The notes under the pieces are model-generated. The model made no database searches. It saw nothing but the letters and a program-made list of their open reading frames with translations, and was not told the DNA's origin. A DNA stretch of 64,000 nucleotides from Pedobacter sp. SL55 (lineage in GTDB: Bacteria; Bacteroidota; Bacteroidia; Sphingobacteriales; Sphingobacteriaceae), in contig NZ_CP113059.1 of NCBI RefSeq assembly GCF_026625705.1, positions 4,376,389 to 4,440,388 on the forward strand, in the 5' to 3' direction. A program made the position numbers and the translations under genes. Shown piece after piece: positions 38,020-46,768 of the stretch; within the stretch, counting starts at the first letter, position 1, and each line of letters opens with the position of its first letter.

Positions 38020-38538
38020 ATGAAATACCTATTCACTATTATAATTGGGTTGTTTTTTATGACAACAAACGCTCAAGAAATCAATAAAAAACTAGAAGAT
38101 CAGATTAAACATAAACAAATCATGTTAAACGAGTGTTCAAGAGAGGGCTTAGTAGAGTTCCCAGAATTTAAAGCAAGTTACGATGCGAACTACGAAAACT
38201 ATAAAGTAGACTCTGCATCGCTGCCGCAACTAACCAAATTAATGAAAGACAAAAAGATTAAAGTGGTGTTAGGCACATGGTGTGGCGATAGCAAATATCA
38301 AGTACCTAATTTTTTAAAAATAACTGATGCGGTTCAGGTTAATGAAAAGAATATTTCTTTCATTGCTGTTGACGGAGCTAAAAAAGCTGAAAATGGCCTC
38401 TTAGATGGACTAGATATCCAACGTGTACCTACATTTATCATTACCGATAAAAAAGGAAAAGAAATTGGCCGCATAGTAGAAAGCCCTAAAAAAAGTATAG
38501 AACTAGATCTAATAGAAATTTTGACGGTTAAGAAATAA
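38020..38538 (+). CDS. Exported thioredoxin-fold protein with CGDS active site
   Basis: 172-residue protein with a signal peptide (about 1-18, ending TNAQ). The thioredoxin domain has VVLGTWCGDSKYQVP, with Cys88-Gly-Asp-Ser91 where CxxC would be, and the cis-proline segment RVPTFII near residue 142. Only the first cysteine is kept, so a disulfide reductase mechanism is not available; monothiol, isomerase or non-redox roles are possible. It lies 40 bases before ung and may be cotranscribed, without obvious functional link. Confidence 0.82.
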   Translation: MKYLFTIIIGLFFMTTNAQEINKKLEDQIKHKQIMLNECSREGLVEFPEFKASYDANYENYKVDSASLPQLTKLMKDKKIKVVLGTWCGDSKYQVPNFLKITDAVQVNEKNISFIAVDGAKKAENGLLDGLDIQRVPTFIITDKKGKEIGRIVESPKKSIELDLIEILTVKK

Positions 38539-39907: not shown

Positions 39908-39927
39908 TATTTAGATTTGTCTAAATA
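39908..39927. promoter_or_regulatory. putative MntR operator overlapping the mntR -7 box
   Basis: Perfect palindrome TATTTAGA-TTTG-TCTAAATA. Its TAGATTTG (39912-39919) is also a TAnnTTTG -7 element, 27 bases before the mntR ATG, so a bound repressor would block the promoter. Two more TTTAGAT/TAGATAAAT half-sites lie at 39883-39908. Nearly the same 16-mer is found before the TonB receptor gene (46753-46768). Confidence 0.65.
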
Positions 39928-39946
39928 ATAGATTAGAAAAGCAAAA

Positions 39947-40600
39947 ATGCAATCTTATACCGAAGAGAACTACCTGAAAATCATTTATCATTTATCAGAA
40001 ATTAGTAACCCTGTATTAACTAATGCCATTGCCGAGCGTATTCAAACCAAAGCGGCATCGGTTACCGATATGATTAAAAAGCTGTCGGAAAAAGAACTGA
40101 TTAATTATGTGAAGTACCAAGGGGTAACATTAACGGAAAAAGGAAAGTTAACAGCTGTCAATATCGTAAGAAAACACCGACTTTGGGAAGTGTTTTTGGT
40201 AGATAAGCTCAATTTTAAATGGGATGAGGTACACGATGTAGCCGAAGAATTGGAACATATCCAATCTAATCTGTTAATTGAACGTTTAGATGAGTTCTTA
40301 GATTTCCCAAAAGTAGATCCTCATGGCGACCTAATTCCGGATAAAAACGGCAACTTCGCCGATCTTTCTTTCATCAAATTAAGTAAACTTAACGCTACCG
40401 ACAAAGGAACGATTACTGGTGTGAGCGAACACTCATCAGCCTTTCTTAAGCACTTGGAAAAACTTGGCCTAACCTTAGGCAAACGCATAGAAATTGTCGA
40501 AGTTTTAGAATTTGACGGCTCGGTAGAATTGTTGGTTGAACAACAAAAAACAAATATTAGTAGAGAAGTAGCTAAGCACATTTTAATTACCAAAAACTAA
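39947..40600 (+). CDS. mntR: DtxR/MntR family metal-dependent transcriptional regulator
   Basis: 217 residues: N-terminal winged helix (YTEENYLKIIYHLSEIS, then VTDMIKKLSEKELINYVKYQG), the dimerisation/metal-binding part (LWEVFLVDKLNFKWDEVHDVAEELEHI) and a C-terminal FeoA/SH3-like domain (GTITGVSEHSSAFLKHLEKLGL). Such proteins bind DNA when loaded with Mn2+ or Fe2+. The stop codon overlaps the ATG of mntH by one base (TAATG), which argues for Mn-responsive control of uptake and for autoregulation through the palindrome in its promoter. Confidence 0.9.
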   Translation: MQSYTEENYLKIIYHLSEISNPVLTNAIAERIQTKAASVTDMIKKLSEKELINYVKYQGVTLTEKGKLTAVNIVRKHRLWEVFLVDKLNFKWDEVHDVAEELEHIQSNLLIERLDEFLDFPKVDPHGDLIPDKNGNFADLSFIKLSKLNATDKGTITGVSEHSSAFLKHLEKLGLTLGKRIEIVEVLEFDGSVELLVEQQKTNISREVAKHILITKN

Positions 40601-42462
40601 TGGCAGAGAAGCAATCGTTAAGCGAAGTACACCAAAGTGTGGCTACCGGCCAAAAAAAGGGTTGGCGAAGAATATTGGCTTTTTTAGGCCCTGCGTATTT
40701 GGTAAGCGTTGGTTATATGGATCCTGGTAACTGGGCTACAGATATTGCTGGAGGTAGTAAATTTGGCTATCAGTTGATTTGGGTCTTGCTCATGTCTAAC
40801 CTTATCGCTCTGCTTTTACAATCGCTAAGCGCTCGTTTGGGTATTGTAAGAGGGCTAGATTTGGCACAAGCTTCGAGAAATACTTATCCTAAATGGGTTA
40901 ATTTCCCTTTATTTATATTAGCGCAAACAGCGATTATTGCTTGTGATTTAGCCGAAATCATAGGGATGGCGATTGGCTTAAACTTACTCTTCGGTTTGCC
41001 TTTAATCTGGGGCATTTCTATTACCATTTTCGATACCGTTCTCTTACTTTTCTTGCTCAACAAAGGCATGCGCAAAATGGAAGCTTTCATTGTTTCTATG
41101 GTATTTATTGTAGGGCTTTCCTTTTTGGTAGAAATGTTTATTGTTGAACCCTCGCTAAAAGAAATTGCCAAAGGTTTTGAACCTTCTATGTTGGGAGGCG
41201 AGGCACTTTACATTGCCATTGGTATTATTGGTGCAACCGTGATGCCGCATAACCTTTACCTACACTCGTCGTTGGTGCAAACGCGAAAATTTGAACGGGA
41301 CAGCAAAGGAATTAAAGAAGCCATTAAATTTAACTTTATAGACACTGCTGTTGCACTAAATTTAGCTTTTTTTGTTAACGCGGCCATTTTAATTTTAGCA
41401 GCGGCAGCGTTCTATAAAAATGGTTTTCATGAAGTGGCAGAGATACAAGATGCCCACGAATTGCTTTCTAACATTTTCGGCAGCGTAGCTCCTGCCCTAT
41501 TTGCCATTGCCTTAATTGCTGCCGGGCAAAGTTCCACTGTTACAGGCACGCTAGCCGGCCAAATTGTAATGGAAGGTCATTTAAACCTAAGGATACAACC
41601 TTGGTTACGCCGATTAATTACGCGTTTATTGGCTATCGTACCTGCATTTTTCACTATCCTTTATTTTGGAGATGATGCGTTGGGAGGCTTGCTAATTTTA
41701 AGTCAGGTGGTTTTGAGTTTACAGCTAGGCTTTGCCATAATTCCTTTAATCCACCTTAACTCGGATAAAAAGGAGATGAAAGAATTTACCATTAAACCTT
41801 GGGTTAAAGTACTGGCTTGGTTAAGTGCGGCAGTGATCGTTGCTTTAAACATCAAATTAGCTATAGAAGAAATTGGCGGCTGGATGGCAGAATCTCACAA
41901 CGCTTGGTATATGTACGCAATTGTACTTCCTATCTCTATTCTTATTTTAGTATTGCTAGTTTACATTTTCATCTATCCTTTCGTCGGTAAAAAACAGCGA
42001 ATTGGTAATGTTCCACATGGCGATGCACTAGCTATTGGCCGCGTAGAAAAAATCAATTACGAACGCATTGGCATTACGGTAGATTTCTCTGAAAATGACA
42101 GAAAAACCATCCGCCATGCACTAATACAGGGCGGAAAAGAAGCCCATTATTATTTAATTCACGTGGTAGAAACCGCAGCCGCCCGTTATCATGGCAAAAC
42201 GGCAATGGATCACGAGACACAAGCCGATATTGACAATCTTAAAAAATATCAGGAAAACCTCGCAGATTTAGGCTATCACGCTACGCCACATGTTGGTTTT
42301 GGAGGTACCGCTAAAGCTATTGCAGAGATCAGTAATACCAATAAATTGGAGCTTTTGGTAATGGGTGCCCACGGTCATAAAGGTTTAAAAGATTTGATAT
42401 TTGGTACAACGGTAGATTCGGTAAGGCACAAAGTGGATATTCCGGTGTTGATTGTGAGGTAA
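40600..42462 (+). CDS. mntH: Nramp family Mn2+/Fe2+ transporter fused to a C-terminal Usp domain
   Basis: 620 residues. The Nramp part (about 1-460) has the metal-site motifs DPGNWATDIAGG in helix 1 and MPHNLYLHSS in helix 6, with eleven or so transmembrane helices. After a linker (IFIYPFVGKKQRIGNVPHG, part) comes a universal stress protein domain of about 140 residues, with the nucleotide-loop motif GAHGHKGLKDLIFGTTVDSVRHK (within limits) and PVLIV at the end. Ordinary bacterial MntH ends near residue 410-440, so the Usp extension is extra and faces the cytosol; it may sense nucleotide or stress state. Cotranscribed with mntR. Confidence 0.92.
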   Translation: MAEKQSLSEVHQSVATGQKKGWRRILAFLGPAYLVSVGYMDPGNWATDIAGGSKFGYQLIWVLLMSNLIALLLQSLSARLGIVRGLDLAQASRNTYPKWVNFPLFILAQTAIIACDLAEIIGMAIGLNLLFGLPLIWGISITIFDTVLLLFLLNKGMRKMEAFIVSMVFIVGLSFLVEMFIVEPSLKEIAKGFEPSMLGGEALYIAIGIIGATVMPHNLYLHSSLVQTRKFERDSKGIKEAIKFNFIDTAVALNLAFFVNAAILILAAAAFYKNGFHEVAEIQDAHELLSNIFGSVAPALFAIALIAAGQSSTVTGTLAGQIVMEGHLNLRIQPWLRRLITRLLAIVPAFFTILYFGDDALGGLLILSQVVLSLQLGFAIIPLIHLNSDKKEMKEFTIKPWVKVLAWLSAAVIVALNIKLAIEEIGGWMAESHNAWYMYAIVLPISILILVLLVYIFIYPFVGKKQRIGNVPHGDALAIGRVEKINYERIGITVDFSENDRKTIRHALIQGGKEAHYYLIHVVETAAARYHGKTAMDHETQADIDNLKKYQENLADLGYHATPHVGFGGTAKAIAEISNTNKLELLVMGAHGHKGLKDLIFGTTVDSVRHKVDIPVLIVR

Positions 42463-42477
42463 GCTTAAAACCCAGCC

Positions 42478-42513
42478 AAACACGTGTAAAAAAACAAAAA
42501 TAAACACGTATAA
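42478..42513. promoter_or_regulatory. direct repeats upstream of vapB, possible operator
   Basis: AAACACGTGTAA (42478-42489) and AAACACGTATAA (42502-42513) are 24 bases apart and lie before a TATTTTTG -7 element (42518-42525). The toxin-antitoxin complex could bind here to repress its own operon. Confidence 0.45.
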
Positions 42514-42551
42514 CATTTATTTTTGTATCTTTATGCAAAAGGTATAAAATT

Positions 42552-42797
42552 ATGAATACAAAACTAACGCTGACTATAGAACAGCATACTATAGAGAAAG
42601 CTAAAGAATATGCTCGAAAGAGAAAGAGGAGCTTATCAGATTTGGTTGAAAACTACTTAAAAGCCTTAACAAGCGAAACGCCTATTGAGGATCAATTAAC
42701 GCCAACTGTTAAATCATTAAAAGGCTCATTTAAATTACCCGCAGATTTCGATTACAAAAAGGAATTAACAGATCGTCTATCTGAAAAATATTTGTAA
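42552..42797 (+). CDS. VapB-type antitoxin (DUF6364-like, ribbon-helix-helix)
   Basis: 81 residues. The N-terminus has the strand-helix-helix pattern of a ribbon-helix-helix repressor (MNTKLTLTIEQHTIEKAKEYARKRKRSLSDLVENYL, in parts), and the C-terminal part (VKSLKGSFKLPADFDYKKEL) would wrap the toxin. The gene overlaps the following PIN-domain gene by one base (TAATG), the normal antitoxin-first order. Direct repeats upstream are a candidate operator. It lies between the mntR-mntH unit and the orphan segment, as a small accessory islet. Confidence 0.85.
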   Translation: MNTKLTLTIEQHTIEKAKEYARKRKRSLSDLVENYLKALTSETPIEDQLTPTVKSLKGSFKLPADFDYKKELTDRLSEKYL

Positions 42798-43213
42798 TGG
42801 AAAAAATTTTAATCGATACAGATGTTATTCTCGATTTCTTTTTTGATAGATTACCTTTCTCTGATGATGCATCTAAAATTTTAGCACTATGCGAAAAACG
42901 AAAAATTAATGGATTTGTGACACCAGTAATGATTAGTAACATCTACTATCTCCTAAGAAAAACAGCAAAACATGAAAAAGTAATTGAAAATTTAAGAGCA
43001 CTACTAGGAATAATAGACGTAGTTGTTATAGGTAAAGAAACAATATTAGATGCCATGAATTCCAATTTTAAAGATTTTGAAGATGCGTTACAAAATTTTG
43101 CAGCAAAAAGCCATAAAGAAATTAAGGTAATCATTACCCGAAATATTAAAGATTATAAAACGAGTAAGCTCTCTATTATGTCTCCAGAAACTTATCTAAA
43201 AGCAATTCGATAA
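42797..43213 (+). CDS. PIN-domain ribonuclease toxin (VapC family)
   Basis: 138-residue PIN domain. Acidic residues expected for the Mg-dependent nuclease site are seen in LIDTDVILD (Asp7, Asp9), SNFKDFEDALQ (Glu/Asp near residue 94) and TRNIKDYKTS (Asp near 122). VapC toxins cut tRNA or rRNA and are silenced by VapB. The start is joined to the antitoxin stop. Downstream is a large inverted repeat rather than another gene of the unit. Confidence 0.87.
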   Translation: MEKILIDTDVILDFFFDRLPFSDDASKILALCEKRKINGFVTPVMISNIYYLLRKTAKHEKVIENLRALLGIIDVVVIGKETILDAMNSNFKDFEDALQNFAAKSHKEIKVIITRNIKDYKTSKLSIMSPETYLKAIR

Positions 43214-43286
43214 ACAAAATATACAGTATAAAAAAACGAGAGCTGTTATTAAGTTATTCCTAAGTGTGTAAAATCCGCTAATAGGG

Positions 43287-43370
43287 CTTCGCGATTGCAA
43301 ATTAGGAAGAGCGTAAGTTATATAACTATATAATTAAGTTTCGAACACCCCTAATTTTGTAATCGCGAAG
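43287..43370. repeat. long imperfect inverted repeat downstream of vapC
   Basis: A 20-base arm beginning CTTCGCGATTGC (43287-43306) pairs with 43350-43370 with one extra base. The 43-base loop contains GTTTCGAACACCC (43338-43350). Related sequence, including ATTGCAAATT followed by GAAGAG, occurs on the other strand near 44254-44280. Confidence 0.6.
43338..43350 (+). repeat. GTTTCGAACACCC repeat, copy A
   Basis: Thirteen bases identical to the copy at 44416-44428 and followed in both by (C/T)TAATTT and, two or three bases later, AATC. An inverted copy of the core is at 44295-44306. The two direct copies bracket the orphan gene. Confidence 0.6.
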
Positions 43371-43382
43371 AGCGATTGGATG

Positions 43383-44000
43383 CTAGCTAACTCTTAAAAA
43401 TTCAAAATTGTAGACTTCTTCATTTTCCTTAAATAAACGATCTAGCTCCCCTAGTTTAATTATCAATTTAGTTGTCACTTGTTGGTTGAAAAAATCGAAG
43501 TCTTTAATAAGAAAGCTTGCAGCATAGAGAAAATCAAATACCAATTCAGCATAAAGCACCTTTTGAGATATGAATTTCCAAAAACGTTCATTATCAATCA
43601 ACTTAATATTATCACCATCATTCTTATAATATCCATAGCAGTTCTTTCTAAATTCTTCAGATTTCAAAAGATTCAAAAAATCTCTTACTACATCCTTTAA
43701 TTTGTATAACCAAAAACGCAAAATAACCCTACGAAATTCAGTATGTATCTTCAAAGCTGTTTTTGTGTCGACCACAGCATCAGAATTGAAATAAACCCCG
43801 TATAAATCATTTTTTTTAAGATAGCTTTCATTGAAAAAAAATTTAACCTTAATTTCCTTGAATTGTTTAAGAAAATCAACAGTAATTTTCCTATTTCGAA
43901 GCATTATTTTCTCATAAATAATGTAGTCGCCGCAAAAATTTTTGTTCTTTAAAAGAAAATCGTGAATATTAGATAGCTTGTTACAAATGTTTTTGTCCAT
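43383..44000 (-). CDS. Orphan protein of unknown function
   Basis: 205 residues, AT-rich codons (many Lys, Asn, Phe, Tyr, Ile), no signal peptide and no membrane helix by eye. It is mostly helical with aromatic clusters: IHTEFRRVILRFWLYKLKDVVRDFLNLL and FWKFISQKVLYAELVFDFLYAASFL, given in part. I recognise no family. It stands between vapC and the TonB receptor gene, bracketed by direct GTTTCGAACACCC repeats, with no partner gene. The composition and bracketing suggest horizontal gain. A TAnnTTTG element is not clear; the upstream 450 bases hold no intact gene. Confidence 0.6.
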   Translation of the reverse strand: MDKNICNKLSNIHDFLLKNKNFCGDYIIYEKIMLRNRKITVDFLKQFKEIKVKFFFNESYLKKNDLYGVYFNSDAVVDTKTALKIHTEFRRVILRFWLYKLKDVVRDFLNLLKSEEFRKNCYGYYKNDGDNIKLIDNERFWKFISQKVLYAELVFDFLYAASFLIKDFDFFNQQVTTKLIIKLGELDRLFKENEEVYNFEFLRVS

Positions 44001-44071
44001 ATAAAATATTATATTCTAAGTATTTACAAAAATAAGGCTAATTATTAGACTTCAGAAATTAGTTAAATTTC

Positions 44072-44338
44072 TTAAAACTTTATGGTTTTATATGTCAAAC
44101 CACCATCGGCAGATTTGTGATCCTTAAAACTCGATCCAGCCACAGAAAAAACAGCATAGAACATCGCGTCTATATCTATTTGGATTACAATAATGATTAT
44201 TAATTTCTGAAATAAAGCATTAAATGATACCCTATCGTACTCACCTCTTCGGAATTTGCAATTCCGAGGACTTATCGGCGGAATCGCAATTACAGGTGTT
44301 CGAAACCTTAATTTATTGTAAGATTGGATGAAATAATG
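44072..44338 (-). other. Open frame crossing repeat sequence, possible gene remnant
   Basis: The minus strand is open for 88 codons, ending in TAA at 44072-44074, but the first ATG is only 30 codons before the stop (44164). That tail reads MFYAVFSVAGSSFKDHKSAD and on to TIKF, protein-like and not low-complexity. The 5' half passes through the GGTGTTCGAAAC repeat and a GGAATT-TGC-AATTCC hairpin. It may be a short gene, the eroded end of one, or a chance frame in a repeat element. This covers most of the 453-base gap before the TonB receptor gene. Confidence 0.3.
44295..44306 (-). repeat. GTTTCGAACACC repeat, inverted copy B
   Basis: On the minus strand GTTTCGAACACC followed by TGTAATTGCG, similar to the continuation of copy A. 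The hairpin GGAATT-TGC-AATTCC lies about 25 bases away. Confidence 0.5.
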
Positions 44339-44415
44339 TTACCGCTCTTCGATTTGTTATTATCCCCATTCATATTGCCAGTATAATTTCCAACCTAAGG
44401 ATTTTATATAGTTTT

Positions 44416-44428
44416 GTTTCGAACACCC
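44416..44428 (+). repeat. GTTTCGAACACCC repeat, copy C
   Basis: Identical 13-mer to copy A, followed by TTAATTTATAATC, ending just before the stop codon of the TonB receptor gene. Confidence 0.6.
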
Positions 44429-44453
44429 TTAATTTATAATCAGCAACAAAAAT

Positions 44454-46728
44454 CTACCTCAAATTATACCTCACTCCAAAGAAACCCCTAATCCCTTGGT
44501 TTGGGGCATATACATAACTAGGATCAAAAGTTAAACCGTAAGGGTTAGTCGGCGTAGCCATTGCATTTCCATTTGCATCAAATTGTACCTGCTTATCAAA
44601 TGGGTCATTTGCCCTAGCAATAATAAACGGATTATTTCTAGTTGGTTTAAAGTTCAGCAAGTTTTTTACACCGCCATATACTTCCAAGTTCTTGAACCCG
44701 CGGTAAGTGAACTGAATATTTTGCAAACTCCAAACAGGAGAATTAGGCATACGAGGATCTAAATCATTCAACAAAGGCAAACGCATTGGACCGTAAATGT
44801 TACCTGTATAATCTATCCCTAAATTTAGCGTATTAATTAAATAAGAAGCCGACCAAGTCCCCATCCATTTCTCAGTTAGTATTTGCTGGGTTTTGATCCC
44901 ATCTTCTACCAAACCGACATCCTGTAAAGTAATCCCAGCATTTAATTTTAAACCAAAATTTAAGCTGACATCCAAATTTCCTGTTAAGCCTTTGCTTACG
45001 GCATAACCAGTTAAATTATCGTATATAATTTGCGTGGTGTTAGTTTCATAATCTGCTACAATACGATTGTTAAAATGCGTGTAAAAGGCCGAAAAATCGA
45101 ACGTAAATATATTTCCATCGTTGGTGTAAAGCTTTTTCAGGTAATTCAAATTTATGTTGTAGGTTTTTTTCAGGCTTAAGTTCATTCGCAATTACCACAT
45201 CCCTAGCGCCAGTTAAGGCGGCATGGTCTTCCGTAAAAATATTTACTACTCTAAAGCCAGTCCCTGCGTTTAATCTTAAAATACTCGTTTCATCAAAATT
45301 GATTTTATAAGCAAAACGAGGCGTGAAAATATTACCGTGGTTCGAATTATAGTCATAACGTATCCCTAATAAAACCGAATGTTTTTGAGCAAACTTAATT
45401 TCATCTTGTACAAAGATCCCTGGCAGGTAAGTATTTTCGGGAGTATTACCGTTGGCTTGCGAAAACGTAGCGGGCGTGTTATCATCATAATAAGTGTAAC
45501 GAAAAGCCGTACCGAAAAGTAAATCATGATGATTAATTTTCTTATCCCAGGTAAGTTGCGAGAAGGCAATATTCTGTCTAGCGATATAAGACGTAGTTCC
45601 GTAACGACTATCCTGATGATGGCTTGTCAAAGAAAATGCAAAGAACATTTTCTCTTTGATAGGCAATTGATAATTTCCTAACAACTCGAAACGTTTGGTA
45701 TAAATACTTTCGCCATACACTTCATCTCCTCCACGATTAGCCTTTGTCCAGTTCATTTCGCCACCCCATCTATCTTCGTATAAAAACCTACCTGCTAAAG
45801 AGAACAATCGATTTTCCTTTCTACTAAAATTCCATTTTTGAAATACCGAAATTCGATCTTGCAAAGTAACATCTGTAAAATTATCATGGTTATGATCCAC
45901 TTTGTTCCCGTATTTAAAATAATTTAAACCAGTGAGTACGTTCAATTTAGGATGTATTTTTACCTTAAACCCTACATCCAAATTATGTTCCAAATAGCTT
46001 GTGGTCATCAAATCGGCACTTAAATTGGAAGCTTTACCTACATCTTTAGTAATGATATTGATTAAACCGCCAACAGCTTCGCTACCATACAGAGAAGAAG
46101 CTGGTCCTTTAACCACTTCTACCCTTTCTATTAAAGAATTTGGAATGCCCGACAATCCGTAAACAGTAGAAAGACTACTCACAATTGGCATTCCATCAAT
46201 CATTACCATGGTATATGGCCCCTCTAAACCATTGATGTGAATATCGCCTGTGTTACAGATATTACAATTTAACTGAGGTCGCACGCCGTTGATATTCTGT
46301 AGCGCATCAAAAATACTTGGGGTTGGGTTTTTCTGAAAAAACTTGGCAGTGTAAATTTCTACTGGCACTGGGCTTTCGAGCCTATTTACTTCCTTTTGTG
46401 TACCTGTAATTACCACCTCACTTAAATCTTCCTTCTGCTCTTCCAGATTAAAATTCAGGACGGTATCCGAAGAAAGTTCAATATTTATCACTTGCGGTTT
46501 ATAACCAATCGCTGTAATTCTAATTTGATAGCTACCTGCTTTTAATGCCGTAAAACCAAATTCTCCATCTGTATTGGTTTGCGTTGATCGCTGCAATTCG
46601 ATAATACGCAAGCTAGATTTAGATATGGCCGCACCGTTACTTTCGACTTTTCCTTTCAACAGCAAATCTTGCCCAAATAAAGTTATTGACAACAGCAAAA
46701 AACAAATAAGAAGTATGAATTTTTTCAT
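44454..46728 (-). CDS. TonB-dependent receptor, frameshifted
   Basis: 757 residues after removing one base from an A7 run (45164-45170). Parts: signal peptide (1-20), a carboxypeptidase-regulatory-like domain (about 22-100), the plug (about 105-225; VMIDGMPIVSSLSTVYGLSG, VVKGPASSLYGSEAVGGLINI in part) and the barrel. The plug has an unusual CNIC pair (Cys155, Cys158). The upstream frame leaves the protein after NELKPEK; the other frame resumes TYNINLNYLKKLYTN and ends GIRGFFGVRYNLR. The promoter has a palindrome nearly identical to that of mntR, so a metal or metallophore substrate is inferred. Confidence 0.87.
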
Positions 46729-46752
46729 CTATTAGCTTTACAAAAACATAAA

Positions 46753-46768
46753 TTTAGGCAAATCTAAA
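46753..46768. promoter_or_regulatory. putative MntR operator at the TonB receptor promoter
   Basis: On the minus strand TTTAGATTTGCCTAAA, one base different from TTTAGATTTGTCTAAA in front of mntR and in the same orientation to the gene. It again contains TAGATTTG, a -7 element, 30 bases before the receptor ATG. One arm base is mismatched (TTTAGA against CCTAAA). Confidence 0.6.

Follow-up and report, generated by a model that had tools for sequence, protein, structure and literature searches.

A conserved palindromic site suggests joint MntR-type control of mntR-mntH and a TonB receptor gene in Pedobacter and other Bacteroidota

Introduction

In the soil bacterium Pedobacter sp. SL55 two almost identical 16-bp palindromes are found, one upstream of the gene pair mntR-mntH and one upstream of a gene for a TonB receptor. 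An earlier note on this DNA had proposed that the two sites tie both units into one metal regulon. This raises the questions of whether the link holds, which metal it may serve and how the sites are arranged with respect to the promoters. An outer-membrane route for manganese is known for few bacteria, and the pairing of such sites before importer genes and a receptor gene suggests a clue to how manganese passes the outer membrane. DtxR operators are palindromic with TTAGG-type half-sites.

A similar module has already been published for Stenotrophomonas (PMC13217887). According to the accessible part of this paper, MntR of Stenotrophomonas maltophilia controls mntH as well as a TonB receptor with a CQNC plug and a thioredoxin-fold partner (TBDR-pTFP module), and expression of the receptor locus and of mntH is higher when MntR is missing. 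MnoT of Burkholderia thailandensis is described in the accessible parts of PMC9334652 and PMC13217887 as a TonB-dependent manganese transporter that works with the secreted Mn-binding T6SS effector TseM. For Bacteroidota our literature search found no report of outer-membrane manganese import or of such a module, and the term "Bacteroid" has 0 occurrences in the main text of PMC13217887. The available text of PMC9723704 gives TAnnTTTG as the -7 box of the Bacteroidota sigma-A promoter and reports for Flavobacterium psychrophilum that metal deprivation induces several TonB transporters, which the authors relate to iron.

Results

Two promoter-placed sites

The window, i.e. the whole stretch of 64,000 nucleotides that was analysed, forms the end of a genome of 4.44 Mb in a single contig. 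Both 16-bp sequences were present exactly as previously given, in the same orientation to their own genes and with 15 of 16 bases shared (Table 1). Their arms are TTTAGA/TCTAAA (perfect, operator 1) and TTTAGA/CCTAAA (one mismatch, operator 2), and the central TTTG is non-palindromic. Operator 1 also lies 102 bp from the start of a divergent Lrp/AsnC gene, with which mntR shares this spacer.

Table 1. Positions of the genes and of the predicted regulatory elements in the window
Feature	Position	Strand	Remark
Predicted operator 1, TTTAGATTTGTCTAAA	39910-39925	+	37 bp upstream of mntR ATG (39947)
Predicted TAnnTTTG -7 box within operator 1, TAGATTTG	39912-39919	+	ends 27 bases before mntR ATG
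mntR	39947-40600	+	217 aa; PF01325, PF02742, FeoA domain
mntH, Nramp transporter	40600-42462	+	overlaps mntR stop by one base; C-terminal Usp domain fused
TonB receptor, second frame	44454-45191	-	remainder of barrel
TonB receptor, first frame	45070-46728	-	CarboxypepD-like domain, plug with CNICNTGDIHINGLEG, part of barrel
Homology frame change relative to intact relatives	45166-45179	-	frame intact in orthologs
Predicted -7 box within operator 2, TAGATTTG	46759-46766	-	ends 30 bases before receptor ATG
Predicted operator 2, TTTAGATTTGCCTAAA	46768-46753	-	40 bp upstream of TonB-receptor ATG (46728)

A scan of the window allowing up to 3 mismatches provided 12 matches, compared to a mean of 5.67 after shuffling, and only operators 1 and 2 had 0 mismatches. 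The chance of TTTAGN6CTAAA within 120 bp was P ~0.0009 according to an order-1 Markov model that had been fitted to both AT-rich upstream regions. Over the 4.44-Mb genome the pattern was found in 31 copies compared to 26 for the reversed control. The dyad alone is thus barely enriched, such that its position matters: only operators 1 and 2 were intergenic and located 25-150 bp upstream of a start. The remaining 29 copies comprised 26 within ORFs of at least 100 aa (one of them at the extreme ORF end, 45 bp upstream of a 108-aa ORF) and 3 intergenic ones, of which one was 5 bp upstream of a ribosomal-protein start and two had no nearby start.

A larger regulon in this genome was considered and rejected. 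The looser pattern TTAGRN4YCTAA had 39 sites (27 for the control), 7 of which were also contained in the stricter scan. From the other 32, 5 were intergenic, 3 of these within 150 bp of a start, and inspection of the first 50 residues revealed no recognisable metal gene behind the intergenic sites of this pattern. Neither scan showed the palindrome scattered across unrelated promoters of the genome; such a scatter is what the earlier note had named as speaking against the link.

Regulator and transporter

The genome contains a single DtxR-family gene, mntR (one PF02742 match). Its product has the N-terminal HTH and the metal-binding/dimerisation domains of the DtxR/MntR family (PF01325 59.7 bits, PF02742 105.3 bits) as well as a FeoA domain (50.1 bits). 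The ligands H77, E81, H96, E100, E103 and H104 (window numbering) were found in 110 of 110 distinct regulators. At residue 8 (39968-39970) the window protein has Asn rather than the Asp of a strictly defined MntR; the same Asn occurred in 103 of the 110 regulators and Asp in 7. This position corresponds to Asp8 in MntR and Met10 in DtxR, and Glu100 to a ligand of the MntR type that is replaced by Cys in DtxR. With Asn in 103 of 110 proteins, the choice of metal is not readable from the ligands. The scores for the NCBIfam MntR equivalogs were below the cut-offs (NF047407 150.8/350, NF003025 64/138 and NF008273 45.8/153 bits). The regulator is called MntR-like here because of its context and of Glu100.

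MntH was recognised as an Nramp transporter by NF001923 (577.2 bits, cut-off 430) and by its DPGN and MPHN motifs. The MntH-Usp (universal stress protein) fusion was common to 14 of 14 mapped mntH genes in 20 larger stretches. For the family we searched 151 genomes including that of the window, 123 of which had a regulator match. At the best-scoring 30 of these 123 (L030-L059), mntR was directly followed by mntH in 30/30 loci. Over the 110 distinct regulators mntH was directly next in only 40, so the tie between regulator and mntH is not universal; the receptor was divergent in 51. A frequent order in the 20 larger stretches was UDG - Lrp - site - mntR - mntH - (thioredoxin-like gene) - receptor - site - smpB. 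In several genomes a second DtxR-family gene and the receptor were divergent and had the site between them, and at many Flavobacterium loci mntH was divergent from the receptor with the regulator after mntH.

Some neighbouring genes recur as well. Between mntH and the receptor the window contains a PIN-domain gene and, directly upstream of it, a small gene (42552-43213), perhaps a toxin-antitoxin pair; L136 has a similar PIN gene at the matching place. A thioredoxin-like protein (Thioredoxin_9, WCGDSK) is encoded at 38020-38538 beside the UDG gene, and a similar ORF adjoins UDG in several larger stretches, including L126, which has no receptor.

Conservation of the site and its dependence on the regulator

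Upstream of mntR the site TTTAGN6CTAAA was found at 30/30 loci (the window genome and 29 relatives, best-scoring 30 of 123), beginning 36-56 bp before the mntR start in every case. For the receptor, a profile search of genome contigs provided at least 589 loci with the plug patterns [IV]CNTGDIH and INGLEGPY, from which the best 80 were kept; the nearest named relatives of the window receptor among the matches listed were from Nubsella and Pedobacter. The core TTAGN6CTAA was located no more than 150 bp from the receptor start in 77, and the strict [TG]..[AC] site in 76, of these best 80 of at least 589 loci. As a control we used the 120 bp upstream of other ORFs of at least 150 aa at the same loci, where the strict site occurred in 6 of 559 regions. 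The pattern fixes TTAG and CTAA, so their invariance arises by construction and the evidence lies in frequency and place. The strict site was missing in L154, L157, L186 and L200 (the other 4 of the best 80 of at least 589); L154 carries GTTAGN6CTAAG instead, and in L186 the receptor is in two pieces and the start taken was that of the second. In the 80 stretches (best 80 of at least 589), some of which were short, a DtxR-family gene was present in 72, mntH in 29 and either of them in 74. Conservation in relatives, on which the proposal had been made to depend, was thus borne out for the site before mntR as well as before the receptor orthologs.

In the family the receptor ortholog group (E <1e-170, next match 3e-56) was found in 62 of 151 genomes, with at most 10 candidates scored per genome. 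Of the 62 upstream regions that were read, 4 were left out because their starts were unclear (G039 and G050 with a site, G144 and G007 with none). The site preceded the receptor in 42 of 53 genomes with a regulator but in 0 of 5 that had no DtxR match, corresponding to a Fisher P of 0.00095 that ignores descent, the regulator-less genomes being four of genus g16 and one of g21. The 11 misses among the 53 regulator-bearing genomes were six of genus g4, three of g21 (G119, G139 and G129), G123 and G108. The receptor upstream regions of the three g21 genomes had no site even at one mismatch, and in G108 the receptor lies behind mntH and a small gene, all on one strand. Six receptors (L265, L268-L272) for which the regulator was absent from the fetched stretch and present elsewhere in the genome had the site; the unlinked receptors L266 and L267 (g4) had none. 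L266, L267 and L281-L284 (g4) retain receptor and DtxR-family match and have no receptor site; another control may act there. Site conservation and the dependence on the regulator support the notion that the 16-bp site links mntR-mntH and the receptor gene. Judged by these sequences, there is very likely a genuine regulatory link, and one that is conserved widely in Bacteroidota.

The outer base of the predicted operator follows the regulator clade. From the 110 distinct regulators we used the 88 whose operators begin with T (76) or G (12). On a FastTree tree with these 88 tips the base changed 2 times, compared to a mean of 11.4 and a minimum of 9 after shuffling. Nearly all 76 T..A regulators carry T/S at recognition position 34, S at 38 and V at 39, compared to V, T and A at these positions in 10 of 11 G..C regulators. 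Since the differences in the recognition region also mark the clades, a base contact is supported but not proven. That the operator flavours T..A and G..C track two regulator clades helps regulon prediction.

Arrangement of the predicted operator and -7 box

A further claim had been that the -7 box lies inside the palindrome. The spacing of 27 and 30 bases was confirmed and the layout seen in the window is supported; the arrangement is not general, as in other genera TAnnTTTG is found downstream of a kept operator. Among the 76 strict receptor sites (best 80 of at least 589 loci) TAnnTTTG occurred only inside in 46, only downstream in 19, at both places in 4 and at neither in 7; among the 77 core sites of the same best 80 of at least 589, 50 had it in the core of the operator. 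In these 50 internal sites (same 80 loci of at least 589) the core TTTG breaks the palindrome, pair 6/11 being A/T in only 25. From these counts two layouts follow: a -7 box merged with the operator, which is the form in the window, and a -7 box placed behind it. Several genera with TTTAGATTAATCTAAA and a downstream TAnnTTTG had cast doubt on the internal box; both layouts were seen among the 80 loci (best of at least 589), such that the claim is kept for the window. For the 30 mntR promoters (best-scoring 30 of 123) TAnnTTTG was inside in 9, downstream in 10 and at neither place in 11, which makes the claim weaker there. Behind operator 2, the place of the downstream box reads TGTTTTTG in the window and TATTTTTG in near relatives.

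The receptor and its interrupted frame

The receptor has a plug domain (PF07715, 78.8 bits) and a barrel that is divided between two frames (PF00593, 57.9 and 37.9 bits). Its profile had 76 matches in this genome, many of them restricted to the N-terminal domain; below the two pieces of the receptor itself (1000 bits) the next match reached 112 bits. The plug carried a CxxC in 30/30 family loci, as CNIC, CNVC or CAVC, and CSVC was seen in some others. Within the receptor group the stretch CxxCNTGDIHING is almost invariant; L265 has CNVCS. The closest solved receptors by sequence were a TonB-linked receptor (9gbc) and the colicin I receptor (Cir), with siderophore receptors and BtuB further down. 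An AlphaFold2 model of the L140 ortholog had a mean pLDDT of 65.6 with values <50 for residues 107-225 (plug). In several genera the gene after the receptor encodes a Thioredoxin_2 protein that contains WCxYC and apparently has a signal peptide (7/7 examined). A thioredoxin-fold gene was present in 34 of the 80 fetched stretches (best 80 of at least 589 loci; some stretches short) and absent beside the window receptor.

The link of the receptor to a shared regulon is supported. The earlier note had overlooked that the receptor frame is interrupted in the window. Instead of a single uninterrupted frame there are two (46728-45070 and 45191-44454), and the homology switches between them at 45166-45179; the relatives are intact with ~720-780 aa. 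Before the break dN/dS was 0.038 and 0.063 for the two nearest relatives and after the break 0.027-0.05 for four relatives, in both cases with dS >1, i.e. near saturation; for other pairs it was not computable. Neither piece contains stops. Two more TonB receptors of the assembly look split by coordinates (genome 2029764/2031034 and 154166/154560). Because both sides are conserved, internal stops are absent and other receptors look split, the break is either recent or an assembly error.

Discussion

We propose that both 16-bp sites serve as operators for the repressor of MntR/DtxR type that is encoded at 39947. With ample metal, most likely Mn2+, the loaded repressor would bind TTTAG-N6-CTAAA, which in the present genome includes the predicted -7 box TAGATTTG of both promoters, and would switch off mntR-mntH and the receptor gene; both units would be expressed when the metal is scarce. 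The receptor would then import the metal or its chelate through the outer membrane at the expense of TonB energy, and MntH would carry the metal across the inner membrane. For joint repression of mntR-mntH and the receptor gene by metal-loaded MntR as a manganese-import regulon we estimate a probability of roughly 0.8. Manganese is the likely metal in view of the mntH partner, Glu100 and the few sites. Binding, metal identity, cargo and direction of control we infer from the genomic data; for the receptor cargo and for the mechanism of the thioredoxin partner we put forward hypotheses.

An iron-responsive, DtxR-like regulator, with the receptor importing an iron chelate and MntH acting as ferrous importer, appears unlikely. 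It would agree with Asn instead of Asp at ligand position 8, with the nearest solved receptors, which apart from an uncharacterised TonB-linked one are Cir and siderophore and B12 receptors, and with the ability of MntH to carry iron (accessible part of PMC10434265). The presence of Glu100 in 110/110 regulators, just two promoter-placed sites found in this genome and mntH following mntR in 30/30 family loci (best-scoring 30 of 123 genomes) argue against iron. Another possibility, which we consider doubtful, is that the link is real in relatives and the receptor has here become a new pseudogene, leaving mntR-mntH as the only working regulon. The frame break as well as TGTTTTTG at the place of the TATTTTTG box of near relatives point in this direction, whereas the dN/dS of 0.027-0.063 on both sides where computable and the stop-free pieces do not, and two further receptors that look split are expected from sequencing errors.

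That the palindrome is a mere promoter motif or a chance likeness of AT-rich upstream DNA with no common repressor behind it is very improbable. Admittedly, the core TTTG belongs to the promoter box and the dyad alone is barely enriched in the genome (31 vs 26). However, the strict site recurs at 76/80 receptor loci (best 80 of at least 589) vs 6/559 control regions, it is missing where the regulator is missing among the family genomes, and the palindrome is kept where the -7 box lies only outside (19/76, best 80 of at least 589 loci). A chance dyad in particular is ruled out by the Markov P, the receptor-locus vs control frequency and the regulator-linked absence.

The manganese-import regulon favoured here resembles DtxR/IdeR and MntR/SloR in its domains, its six metal ligands and its palindromic operators with TTAGG-type half-sites, and differs from them by Asn at the Asp8/Met10 position (103/110) and by the overlap of the operator with the Bacteroidota -7 box. 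Compared to the Bacteroidota sigma-A promoter as given in the accessible part of PMC9723704, the TAnnTTTG is the same, and a predicted repressor operator is merged with this -7 box, the phylum's own. With MnoT, as far as described in the accessible parts of PMC9334652 and PMC13217887, the proposed system would share a TonB-dependent outer-membrane manganese route; unlike it, MnoT has a T6SS effector partner, and an MntR operator goes unmentioned for MnoT in these parts.

The module of S. maltophilia (accessible part of PMC13217887) is similar in that mntR and mntH are found near a TonB receptor preceded by an MntR-type site, which is recognised here by sequence, and in that the receptor plug has a CxxC. 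In contrast to that module, the plug reads CN[IV]C and not CQNC, the operator has 16 bp instead of 25 bp, and MntH is fused to Usp. A gene for a thioredoxin-fold partner is found in several of the relatives' genera and missing next to the receptor of the window. We tentatively suggest, as a less than even bet, that Bacteroidota possess an energised outer-membrane manganese import with a CN[IV]C-plug receptor whose MntR-type operator is merged with the -7 box, joined in many genera by a secreted thioredoxin partner that would set the redox state of the plug cysteines; it might be the counterpart of the Stenotrophomonas module by common descent or by convergence. The conserved operator, the receptor ortholog group and the candidate thioredoxin partner can be tested in genetically tractable species.

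Plasmid tblastn returned only receptors with <60% identity, and 1 of 3 inspected, from Persicobacter, had a CQNC plug. This distant TonB receptor (L221:4001-6268) contains NNCQNCGFSQVRMNGLEGG, such that CxxC plugs exist beyond the present ortholog group.
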